From an uncultured Nitrospira sp. (lineage in GTDB: Bacteria > Nitrospirota > Nitrospiria > Nitrospirales > Nitrospiraceae), in contig CABVRX010000009.1 of assembly GCA_902500825.1 (NCBI GenBank), positions 1 through 64,000 on the forward strand: a DNA stretch of 64,000 nucleotides. Reading direction: 5' to 3'. Shown here one piece after another: positions 37,317 through 45,233 of the stretch. The notes below the pieces were generated by a model, which worked only from the letters and a program-made list of their open reading frames with translations, was not told where the DNA came from and did not search any database. Position 1 is the stretch's first letter. Each line of letters starts with the position of its first letter. Made by a program: the position numbers and the translations under genes.

Positions 37317-37845
37317 ATGGCCAACATGCTACACATGACGGCTGTTCAACTTCGCTCTCCTGGCGCAGCATTCGAAGTGGTCAAGCGAGAGATCCCGACA
37401 CCCGGATCCAGCCAAGTCCGCATTAAAGTGCACACCTGCGGGATTTGTCATAGTGACCTGTTTGTGAAGGAAGGCTCTTGGCCTGGCTTGCTATACCCAC
37501 GGGTCACAGGCCACGAGGCAGCTGGTATCGTTGACGAGGTTGGAACCGGCATGACGACATGGAAACGAGGCCAGCGAATGGGAGTGGGCAGGCATGGTAG
37601 ATATTGTAGTCAATGCGATCCTTGTCGACGCGGTGACTTCATGGGACGCAAGAATTTCCGTATCACGGGATTTCATGATGACGGAGGATATGCTCAGTAC
37701 ATGATTGCTCGAAGTGAAGCCTTGGCCGCCATTCCGGATTCGATCTCTCTGTCGAGGCAGCGCCGATCCTCTGTGCGGGCGTGACCATGTTCAATAGCTT
37801 GAGACATAGTGGAGCCGTCGCAGGAGATCTCGTGGACGTACCTTC
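37317..37845 (+). pseudogene. Zinc-dependent alcohol dehydrogenase, N-terminal relic
   Basis: The first 145 codons are the GroES-like half of a medium-chain Zn alcohol dehydrogenase: catalytic zinc motif HTCGICHSDLFV, GHEAAGIVDEVG, and structural zinc loop CSQCDPCRRGDF (the fourth Cys is replaced by Gly). At about 37750 one base is missing. The next frame continues the same family with VEAAPILCAGVTMFNSLRHS and GAVAGDLV, and then similarity ends. The whole NAD-binding domain is absent. This is a gene broken by one frameshift and a large 3' deletion. The upstream palindrome is preserved. Confidence 0.8.
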
Positions 37846-40547: not shown

Positions 40548-41270
40548 ATGATGTCAGCACTCAGAGCGATCGTGGTGCGCACCCATAGACCGCGAGGGGC
40601 CGTGTCGGCATGCACGAGGAGCACCCAGCGCCTCATTCGCTACGCCTGCCTGGCGACGGCATCGCTGGTGACGATTGCCGTCGCGGCTCAAGTGGTGCAC
40701 GCCGCAGGCGGAGGCCAGACAAAGTTTAAGCGTATTTCGACGCAGTACATTGCGGCTTTGGGCGATCCAGGTGCGACCTCCGGAAACGGCGCGCAATTAT
40801 GGGGTCTGTGGCCGCTTGACCCAGGTCCTCGAGGCGTCAAGCTGAACCGCTATCAATTACTAAAAAATTCCGGTGGCGTCGCCCCGGCGCGCTGGAAATT
40901 CGACGAGACAGACTGGTGGCTGGAGGAACACGGCCTGATCATGGAGCAACCGACCGTTCCACTTCCTCCCGGCAAATACCTGGTCACGGGTGCCCGCAAG
41001 GTGACGGCCGTGCTGACGATTCATCCCGCCGACAGCCATGGCGACACACGTTGGGAGCTCGATCAAGGCGCGACGCTCTACGACGTGACCCACCTGGCCT
41101 GTCGTTCCGCGCGCTACACACCGGCAACAGTGGGTGGTTCGTGCTCGCCGGCCGACGCGAAGCAGACGGCATTTCCAGTTGCGCCAGGGGGAACGATGCC
41201 TCCGGTCGAGGGCTGCACGAAGCAAGACTATGCGGTGCTCATCGTGATCGGCGTGGGCGTGGAAGACTGA
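40548..41270 (+). CDS. Conserved secreted protein of unknown function
   Basis: The 240-residue protein has a long basic N-region and a hydrophobic signal (YACLATASLVTIAVAAQVVHA). The mature domain has motifs I associate with an unnamed conserved family: STQYIAALGDPGATSGNGAQ, WGLWPLDPGPRGV, WKFDETDWWLEEHGLIME, ATLYDVTHLACRSARYTPA and VEGCTKQDYAVLIVIGVGVE. Three cysteines follow CRS, CSP and CTK. Tandem ATGs at 40548/40551 have AAAGGA about 10 nt upstream. A decayed partial copy of its 3' half lies at 41828-42009. Confidence 0.7.
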   Translation: MMSALRAIVVRTHRPRGAVSACTRSTQRLIRYACLATASLVTIAVAAQVVHAAGGGQTKFKRISTQYIAALGDPGATSGNGAQLWGLWPLDPGPRGVKLNRYQLLKNSGGVAPARWKFDETDWWLEEHGLIMEQPTVPLPPGKYLVTGARKVTAVLTIHPADSHGDTRWELDQGATLYDVTHLACRSARYTPATVGGSCSPADAKQTAFPVAPGGTMPPVEGCTKQDYAVLIVIGVGVED

Positions 41271-41605
41271 ACACCGGGGCGCACCGACAGCATTTGCAGC
41301 GGGTCACTAGAAACCTCCCAGTGCATCTTCTATCACTCAGTTGAAGAATGAGGAACAGGTGGGTACAGGTCTTGGCTTAGAAACGATGCGTCATCTCCCA
41401 TAAAAGACTCCTGACCCCCTTAAAAACGCATGATCTGACAAGACCTTGACGAGCTGATCTCTTTGCATTGTCAGTTTTGACGCAATGTTCGCATCAGTTT
41501 AACTACGTAACTGTTCAATCCTTGCAATATTGACATCTGACCATTTGGCGCAGCTTTTGCGTATCTTCGTTGGCAGCTGTGAACCCACCACCCTAGGAGG
41601 GATCA
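41271..41605. other. Intergenic region holding the zinc-ribbon gene promoter
   Basis: These 335 bp contain no gene. The left part (to about 41390) is similar to sequence downstream of the duplicate at 42010-42155, so it belongs to the duplicated unit. The right part holds the sigma-54-like element. Confidence 0.5.
41546..41562 (+). promoter_or_regulatory. Sigma-54-type -24/-12 promoter
   Basis: TGGCGC-AGCTT-TTGCG has the invariant GG (41547-41548) and GC (41559-41560) exactly 10 nt apart, with good flanking matches to the TGGCAC-N5-TTGC consensus. Transcription would start near 41572, leaving a short leader before the zinc-ribbon gene at 41606. Confidence 0.5.
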
Positions 41606-41779
41606 ATGGAATGTCCGAAGTGTAGAGGGAGGATGTTGTTGGAGCGGTTCTCGGATTTCTTTCTGGTGTTCTATGCATGGAAATGCATCAATTGCGGCGC
41701 TATGATCGACCGCACCATTTCCAACAACCGTCGAAAGAGTCTGGCTGTCCGTGAATCCCAGACCATTGTCGTGCGCTAA
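41606..41779 (+). CDS. 57-residue zinc-ribbon protein
   Basis: The short protein has two Cys pairs, CPKC and CINC, about 24 residues apart. A hydrophobic and aromatic segment lies between them (SDFFLVFYAWK), and a basic tail follows (SNNRRKSL). This is a small zinc ribbon. A near-perfect ribosome site (GGAGGGATCA) precedes the ATG, and a sigma-54-like promoter lies 44 bp further upstream. I recall similar short CxxC...CxxC proteins in Nitrospira-type genomes, but no function is assigned. It could bind nucleic acid or a protein partner. Confidence 0.7.
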   Translation: MECPKCRGRMLLERFSDFFLVFYAWKCINCGAMIDRTISNNRRKSLAVRESQTIVVR

Positions 41780-41827
41780 GAAGTCGAAGCAAAGGGGTCG
41801 GGAGTCTTTCATTATTATCGGTTGGCC

Positions 41828-42009
41828 ATGGAGCAACCGACCGGCCCACGCGCGATACACCGGCGACGGTGGATGGTTCGTGCTCGCCGGCCGACGCGAA
41901 GCAGACGGCGTTTCCGGTTGCACCAGTGGCAACGATGCCTCCGGTCGAAGGCTGCACGAAGCAAGACTATGCGGTGCTCATCGTGATCGGCGTGGGCGTG
42001 GAAAACTGA
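41828..42009 (+). pseudogene. Decayed partial copy of the secreted-protein gene at 40548
   Basis: The copy opens with ATGGAGCAACCGACCG, identical to 40941-40956. It then jumps across about 150 bp to a segment matching 41107-41270 at high identity (SARYTPA-like, then GSCSPADAKQTAFPV, EGCTKQDYAVLIVIGVGVE) and keeps the stop codon. The frames of the two parts do not join. Similarity continues weakly to about 42155, matching the sequence after the parent gene. It is a duplication with an internal deletion. Confidence 0.8.
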
Positions 42010-42193
42010 ACACCAGTGGCGCACCGACAGCTTGCGCGTGGACCTCAATAAAAGACTCCCGGTACACTTTTTCTCACGTGGATGTAGAGTGACAGCCGTT
42101 GAAGAGGAGAGGAACTGCGGGATAAGAACTCGGCTGGCGCAGAAACACGAGGAGAAGCGTTCTTTAAGCAGATGGCTGAGAAACGCTCTTCAG

Positions 42194-43889: not shown

Positions 43890-44090
43890 TTAAGGTTTCT
43901 TTTTTAATCCTAATGTTGCGGCAACGAGATCCAGTGGTCGCCCCTGTCGATTTTTGGGATCTGCCTTGGCTCTGCGCAGGTCGCGAAGATCGTGATAGTC
44001 TTCGACCTCTTCTTGCAGCCGAAGAAAATCCTTGTACGGTATGACGGCAAATTCTTTCTTGCCGTGTTTTTCTATGATTTGCGCTTTCAT
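43890..44090 (-). CDS. Phd/YefM-like antitoxin
   Basis: The 66-residue protein starts MKAQIIEKHGKKEFAVIPYK and continues DFLRLQEEVEDYHDLRDLR. This is the N-terminal beta-alpha DNA-binding pattern of Phd/YefM antitoxins followed by a charged helix. The C-terminus (GRPLDLVAATLGLKKKP) would be the toxin-neutralising tail. The ATG at 44090 lies 4 nt after the toxin stop. GAAGGAGG is about 15 nt upstream, inside the toxin's last codons, so translation may be coupled. The gene order is toxin first. It autoregulates in known relatives. Confidence 0.75.
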   Translation of the reverse strand: MKAQIIEKHGKKEFAVIPYKDFLRLQEEVEDYHDLRDLRRAKADPKNRQGRPLDLVAATLGLKKKP

Positions 44091-44094
44091 ACGT

Positions 44095-44343
44095 CTACCG
44101 GTAGGCCTCCTTCCGATGAAGAATTCGATAAATAATGATTTTATGCTCCACGATTTCAAACAAAACCCGCCACACACCGACCCGCAGACGATACTCGGGC
44201 AACGCACTGGCCAGTTTTTTTATATCGCCCGTCAGTCCTTCCTCCAATAGAAATAACGCGTCGGCAATACGTTGGGCGTCGGCTTTTGGCAGCGACGCCA
44301 AATCTTTCTCGGCTCGCTTGCGTATTTCAATTTCGTATCGCAT
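44095..44343 (-). CDS. RelE/ParE-family toxin
   Basis: The 82-residue protein has the RelE/ParE core. The N-terminal strand and helices MRYEIEIRKRAEKDLASLPK and AQRIADALFLLEEG lead to the beta-sheet LASALPEYRLRVGVWRVLFE and IVEHKIIIYRILHRKEAYR. The Arg in EYRLRVGVWRVLFE and the C-terminal HRKEAYR match the ribosome-dependent mRNA-cleaving RelE type. The ATG at 44343 is chosen because the family starts at (M)xYxI; an upstream ATG at 44358 is less likely. It pairs with the downstream antitoxin. The cassette lies between two methyltransferase 3'-end relics. Confidence 0.8.
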   Translation of the reverse strand: MRYEIEIRKRAEKDLASLPKADAQRIADALFLLEEGLTGDIKKLASALPEYRLRVGVWRVLFEIVEHKIIIYRILHRKEAYR

Positions 44344-44672
44344 TGTAAGTATTTGCACTCAGGCCATGCCGCGCAAGCACATATTTCACTCTGCTTCATG
44401 GACATGAATAGTTATACTCTCACCGGAGCCCGACATTCCGAGGATAACAAAGTCTCTCATATCTTTCCATGTATTGCATGTGCTTCGACGGCAGTGTTTA
44501 GCGGCTGCCATCCCTATGCAACGTTCGTTGCCTTCCCTACCCCTCCTGGCCAAATAAGGTTGTGGCAAAATCGTGATCATCTGCCTCCCGCATAGATCTC
44601 CTCCACTCTACCCTCGTGGATCCCTCGTCGTCGAGGCCAGCCCAATGGGAATGAATGAGATATCCTTCCGCT
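44344..44672. other. Gene-free stretch between toxin gene and methyltransferase relic 2
   Basis: These 330 bp should hold the leftward promoter of the toxin-antitoxin pair. I find no other gene, repeat or RNA. Confidence 0.35.
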
Positions 44673-44792: not shown

Positions 44793-45233
44793 TCAGAACG
44801 ACTTATACTCGAGCCATTTGCCGTTCAGCGTGATTTTGCAGCGCGTTTCACCCTGGCTGCCGGTGACCTTTTCTATATCCAACGTGAAATCGATCGCGCT
44901 CATGATGCCGTCGCCGAACATCTCGTTTGCCATCTCACGCAAAGAATCGCCGTACACGCCGACAATTTCGAGCAACCGGTACTTGAAGGGGTCCGTCATG
45001 TTCGGCAGATCCGTGCGTACCGGAAAGCGACTCAAGGACTGGACAATCTCCTTGTCCAAATCCAAAAGCTTGCCGACCTTCACGGCTTCGTCTGGGGTAA
45101 ACCGGTGATTGCCGTTCAACGCCGCCGCCACGAACGTGGGGTTCCTGCCGACGGCTTTCGCGATATCGGCGATCGTGAGTTTCTTCTCGAGTCGAGCCGC
45201 CTTGACCTTGCTGCGTATCGCTTCTTTCTCCAT
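44793..45233 (-). CDS. cynS: Cyanate hydratase (cyanase)
   Basis: Cyanase converts cyanate and bicarbonate to ammonium and CO2 in the cytosol. At 146 residues it has normal length for the decameric enzyme. The N-terminal HTH-like domain (LTIADIAKAVGRNPTFVAAA) is present. The C-terminal catalytic domain keeps the three active-site residues: Arg86 and Glu89 (KYRLLEIVGVYG) and Ser112 (FGDGIMSAIDF). GGGAGG lies 5 nt before the ATG. Cyanate transporter and carbonic anhydrase genes of classical cyn operons are absent. It sits between a decayed and an intact copy of the methyltransferase 3' end, which suggests insertion. In nitrite oxidisers cyanase supplies ammonium for growth or cross-feeding. Confidence 0.95.
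   Translation of the reverse strand: MEKEAIRSKVKAARLEKKLTIADIAKAVGRNPTFVAAALNGNHRFTPDEAVKVGKLLDLDKEIVQSLSRFPVRTDLPNMTDPFKYRLLEIVGVYGDSLREMANEMFGDGIMSAIDFTLDIEKVTGSQGETRCKITLNGKWLEYKSF

Follow-up and report, generated by a model that had tools for sequence, protein, structure and literature searches.

Control by sigma-54 often serves the NtrC nitrogen and Psp envelope-stress regulons. In Nitrospira, which are major nitrite oxidisers and hard to manipulate, regulation is little known. Among other sigma-54 systems, PEP-CTERM genes (Haft et al., 2006; PMC1569441) carry a sigma-54 box together with a PrsR site, and the part of that text considered here describes the PrsR DNA motif as limited to Proteobacteria. 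The locus presented below lies in a window, meaning the whole 64-kb stretch of DNA that was analysed, and centres on a gene for a very small zinc-ribbon-like protein. We regard it as quite likely that the copies of this gene stand on RpoN -24/-12 promoters with an upstream activator site and form a dedicated circuit.

The zinc-ribbon gene

The features of the locus are as follows.

41403..41418 (+): left end motif AAAGACTCCTGACCCC, RAYT-associated, from motif searches of the genome and its relatives
41435..41474 (+): putative activator (UAS) block CTGACAAGACCTTGACG...TTGTCAG, a dyad within a conserved block (pattern match 41437-41473)
41546..41561 (+): predicted sigma-54 -24/-12 promoter TGGCGCAGCTTTTGCG, conserved in all readable loci (profile match 41435-41562)
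41595..41600 (+): ribosome-binding site AGGAGG, 5 nt before the ATG
41606..41779 (+): zinc-ribbon-like ORF of 57 aa, CxxC-x20-CxxC with a basic tail, ATG start, under purifying selection and member of a conserved family
41794..41809 (-): right end motif AAAGACTCCCGACCCC, inverted copy, from the same motif searches

The 57-residue ORF and its near-ideal ribosome site had been noticed in the sequence-only reading, and both are confirmed. The cysteine spacing given there, CxxC-x24-CxxC, needs correction, as the residues are C3, C6, C27 and C30. Compared with nine relatives, the ORF has a pN of 0.045-0.09 and a pS of 0.33-0.69 (pN/pS about 0.09-0.21). Mean column identity in the protein family is 90-91%, and the four cysteines are invariant in 20/20 rows of the protein alignment. 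Such low pN/pS values and high column identity argue that the ORF is a real gene. The source genome (3.79 Mb), with the window on its contig C9, holds four close copies, namely the window copy and three paralogues with 82-86% identity, and a protein search up to E 10 adds ten more distant matches. A scan of named genomes returned 190 relatives. The 80 best of them were taken, and since nearly all are labelled Nitrospira, the source genome is presumably Nitrospira too. Copy numbers range from one to five per genome.

The zinc-ribbon unit has the 3' end of a 240-aa ORF on one side and, on the other, a partial repeat of that ORF with 92% identity (41107-41291 and 41846-42031), and further repeats of the 240-aa ORF gene are seen at the related loci L013, L027, L039 and L067. 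The surrounding window also contains a cyanate lyase gene (Pfam Cyanate_lyase, 44796-45233, -), a probable toxin of the ParE type paired with a Phd/YefM-like protein (43890-44358, -), and an alcohol dehydrogenase N-terminal domain that ends early, possibly a broken gene (37317-37784, +).

The predicted sigma-54 promoter and its upstream block

Upstream of the ORF, the dinucleotides GG (41547-41548) and GC (41559-41560) are exactly 10 nt apart within TTTGGCGCAGCTTTTGCG, just as the sequence-only reading had stated when it called a GG-N10-GC element in the right place. Consensus matching alone was rejected as promoter evidence: when as many as 3 mismatches are allowed, TGGCACGNNNNTTGCW has 79 matches across the 64-kb window against 97 expected, which is not above chance, and the window promoter belongs to the 3-mismatch class. 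Although at chance level within the window, the match is significant because it is conserved across relatives. When scored within 75 nt of the ATG, GG-N8-TTGC is found at -54 to -61 in 83/83 readable zinc-ribbon loci, out of 84 from which L057 was left out for an N run before the gene. The same pattern occurs in only 193 of 9662 control windows (2%), and of 407 ORF starts in these loci only 2 have it. The check that had been proposed, whether homologues keep GG/GC and the distance between them, thus has a positive outcome. The 84 loci contain mutual orthologues, and 59 are left once promoters at least 85% alike are removed. A 55-row non-redundant promoter alignment has ten invariant columns, made up of TGAC from an upstream block, GG and TTGC; its rows were chosen by GG and TTGC, for which every readable locus qualified. 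The columns adjoining GG and TTGC vary across relatives, and sequence similarity fades beyond about -112 from GG. Transcription of the 57-aa gene would be expected to start at about 41572.

The upstream block has the consensus GACAAAAnATTGACG-N-CGTCAA, and its TGAC accounts for the invariant columns seen in the 55 rows. In the window it reads CTGACAA...TTGTCAG and is dyad-like. Lying about 110 bp before the expected start, it falls within the 100-150 bp typical of an upstream activator site, and its position suggests a putative binding site for an activator. The block pattern has three matches in the source genome, all at zinc-ribbon copies; in 12 same-genus genomes, 17 of 20 matches are at copies and 3 of 20 elsewhere, and the reversed pattern, used as a control, has none. 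Both halves of the sigma-54 machinery are present in the source genome: its rpoN gene has a long open frame, and the sigma-54 activator domain is matched strongly 25 times, several of these matches having GAFTGA.

Two activator candidates were set aside. One is the regulator near the copy on contig C24, whose motif reads GAFTDA and which has no other support. That copy (L197, C24:7500-17000) follows a run made up of a truncated globin, a multicopper-oxidase-like end, this Fis-type regulator, a TPR protein and an HD-domain protein. The other is PrsR, since motif 1, which ends in TTTACA, is present in 0/55 promoters (first 60 nt, either strand). The source genome does have a PrsR-type regulator (L134, C32:35241-36575), which scores above the curated cut-off for the PEP-CTERM response regulator PrsR. 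The organism called 'Nitrospira multiformis' in the PEP-CTERM study is presumably a Nitrosospira.

A promoter with one kind of target

A sequence-only promoter profile, R1, was built from 55 relatives, with the source genome excluded. Searched up to E 10 in the source genome, it finds four sites, which are exactly the four copies (150 of 342 candidates were fully scored). Across 59 genomes it finds 81 sites in 34/35 same-genus genomes, the missed genome being 54% complete, and no site in 24 genomes of other families; the many-genome search used stricter filters and may miss weaker regulon members. Of these 81 sites, 78 precede a zinc-ribbon copy and three are cut by contig ends. The distance to the gene is 42-50 nt for 77 of the 78, and 285 nt for the last one (G006:C17), whose contig equals in length that of L057, the locus with the N run. 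Conversely, 8/86 same-genus zinc-ribbon rows are without an R1 site. Four of the eight were examined individually: L189 and L190, two of five in one group, have CTGGATCG plus TTGC at the correct spacing, in L191 a normal site is found close to where the contig ends, and L192, an apparently decayed copy, has no sigma-54 site. Comparison among genomes therefore makes the promoter with its upstream block near-exclusive to the zinc-ribbon gene.

More distant relatives were also surveyed. In a second family, represented by the top protein match from each of eight genomes, GG-N8-TTGC is found in 8/8 orthologues, its GG standing 38 to 68 nt before the ATG. These copies (L181-L188) have a different conserved upstream block, CTGTGTA...TTTTTGACACAG, as if the activator site had been exchanged while the sigma-54 site stayed. 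Among three distant members from a third family, GG-N8-TTGC is found in two. No site of this type is seen in the distant same-genus member L196 or in six distant paralogues of the source genome. From this survey, sigma-54 control appears to mark a close clade and to be older than the genus, with the activator site changing meanwhile.

A model for regulation of the locus can be proposed on this basis. An orphan zinc-ribbon gene is present in four near-identical copies, the window locus among them; each is apparently a single-gene unit and would be transcribed by RpoN (sigma-54) RNA polymerase from its -24/-12 promoter. To open the promoter, a putative enhancer-binding ATPase would bind about 110 bp ahead of the start. 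Because the detectable targets of the upstream site are the gene's own copies, the whole would behave like an on/off circuit dedicated to setting how much zinc-ribbon protein there is. Genome comparison shows the promoter, the block, their near-exclusive link to the gene and the purifying selection, while dependence on RpoN in the cell and binding of an activator are what we infer. Since sigma-54 promoters are silent without an activator, production of the protein probably awaits a specific signal.

Protein function

The assignment as a zinc ribbon comes from the way the cysteines are spaced and from profile scores below threshold. Against Pfam and NCBIfam, the 57-aa protein reaches the curated cut-off of no model, and the weak scores under the cut-offs are TFIIB-type and RNA polymerase subunit P-like. 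A search of solved structures gives nothing below E 0.5, and an AlphaFold model made from 20 sequences has a low mean pLDDT (54.8). The near-invariance over most of the length, the basic tail and the weak TFIIB- and polymerase-P-like scores suggest a zinc-stabilised adaptor that would contact RNA polymerase, the ribosome or nucleic acid, a role that we put forward tentatively and with more doubt than conviction.

Alternative explanations

The main alternative accepts sigma-54 control and makes the protein a rubredoxin-like metal or electron carrier instead of an adaptor. The four cysteines in two knuckles and weak rubredoxin-like scores (E 0.025 and E 0.58) speak for it; these scores are below cut-offs, however, the second knuckle reads CINCG, and the conserved basic tail is left unexplained. 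We find it unlikely, even set beside the tentative adaptor. Other alternatives concern the regulation itself. The sequence-only reading had linked sigma-54 control of such a small protein to nitrogen or envelope stress; the control is supported by the conserved GG/GC spacing and by the rpoN and activator-domain genes, and the link is not. Membership of a classical NtrC or Psp regulon is attractive insofar as such regulons are often under sigma-54. Yet the NtrC-like dyad, taken as TGCACY-N4-6-GGTGCA, is found in 0/55 promoters (a lone TGCACC in 7/55), no envelope-stress gene is seen among the scanned neighbours of the window copy, and the upstream block occurs almost only at zinc-ribbon copies, unlike what a global nitrogen regulon would show. 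Such membership is thus quite improbable. Least credible of all, to the point of being hardly worth entertaining, is that a sigma-70 promoter or a structured leader RNA makes up the conserved sequence upstream, with an incidental GG/GC. The leader from promoter to ribosome-binding site is indeed fairly conserved (AGCTGTGAAC), but an Rfam search of 41200-42100 gives no match, and the sole sigma-70-like site found in a scan for such promoters and terminators is inside the 57-aa ORF. Moreover GG and TTGC are fixed while neighbouring columns vary, and the second family retains the sigma-54 element in different surroundings. One terminator-like hairpin in that scan overlaps the sigma-54 promoter, and was judged a chance occurrence.

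Alongside the dedicated sigma-54 circuit, there is the question of whether the conservation partly reflects descent of the copies, the unit of motif, block, promoter, gene and motif having moved together as cargo of a RAYT/IS200-like system. On either side of the window copy stands the motif AAAGACTCCYGACCCC, the two being inverted with respect to each other, and with one mismatch the motif has only three sites genome-wide, all at copies (the third is the C24 copy). Outside the radC-rsmD locus, the left motif, counted at 11/15 or more, is found about 204 nt before the ATG in 23/39 copies and the right motif in 12/39, versus 0/45 for each at radC-rsmD; since the 39 copies include orthologues, flanking genes and alignment reduce them to about four independent positions. 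In 34 relatives there are 36 exact matches to the motif, 12 of them beside a zinc-ribbon copy. It also stands 52-54 nt before the transposase gene in 17/20 examined cases, and the two of these transposase proteins that were tested both match Y1_Tnp. We take these transposases to be RAYT. In 6 of 40 transposase matches from 34 genomes, a zinc-ribbon copy is found at most 100 nt upstream on the same strand, and alignable similarity between two copy loci starts at the left motif. The zinc-ribbon unit and the transposase gene thus have inverted end motifs in common, as in RAYT/REP units, and given this shared flanking motif the dispersed copies may have spread with that system. On the other side, the motifs around the zinc-ribbon gene are oriented opposite to those around the transposase gene, which would place the gene between two such ends and not inside one element. 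The right motif is absent from many copies, and by-eye inspection of aligned loci showed no convincing target duplication at the unit ends. Finally, the radC-rsmD copies (45/84) look vertically inherited and have this promoter although the motif is absent, so that mobility fails to explain the promoter conservation. The flanks may mean that a RAYT-type transposase system has spread the unit, with insertion of end motifs next to a resident zinc-ribbon gene as the alternative, and we give the cargo explanation less than even weight. Equally speculative is a mobile regulatory cassette, in which the orphan gene with its own sigma-54 promoter and activator site would have been captured by the transposase system and copied around Nitrospira genomes. 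One dedicated activator might then command one to five scattered copies, a one-gene regulon enlarged by gene dosage.

Comparison with known systems

The dedicated sigma-54 circuit proposed here is made of parts that are individually of known kinds, in a combination not met in the literature searched. Judged by titles and abstract openings, that search found no paper on the zinc-ribbon family or on a sigma-54 regulon of Nitrospira, nor any sigma-54 circuit with copies of one orphan zinc ribbon as its only detectable targets. The regulon can be read from sequence alone, since a single promoter architecture goes with a single protein family in 34/35 same-genus genomes, and the search for its signal and for the partner of the protein is a concrete problem that can be put to the test. 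Should the transposase link hold, it would also exemplify how a complete sigma-54 switch can spread in one piece.

On the protein side, the closest comparisons are with the small zinc-ribbon families PF08271 (TFIIB type), NF001605 (RNA polymerase subunit P) and NF047912, which likewise have two CxxC knuckles in about 60 residues and weak similarity to the 57-aa protein, all scores being under curated cut-offs. RAYT/REP units (Nunvar et al., 2010; PMC2817692), as far as the portion of the source considered goes, have a Y1_Tnp transposase flanked by a motif in inverted orientation, as here. Unlike in those units, the present motif is not abundant in the source genome, is without an obvious internal palindrome, and brackets an unrelated gene. 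The PEP-CTERM/PrsR system (PMC1569441), again from part of the text, differs in that its targets are exported PEP-CTERM proteins, and its motif ending in TTTACA is absent from 55/55 upstream blocks here. It nevertheless has single-gene units with a -24/-12 site, which a conserved activator motif precedes by much the same distance as here, and its one regulator serving many dispersed genes resembles the zinc-ribbon circuit.
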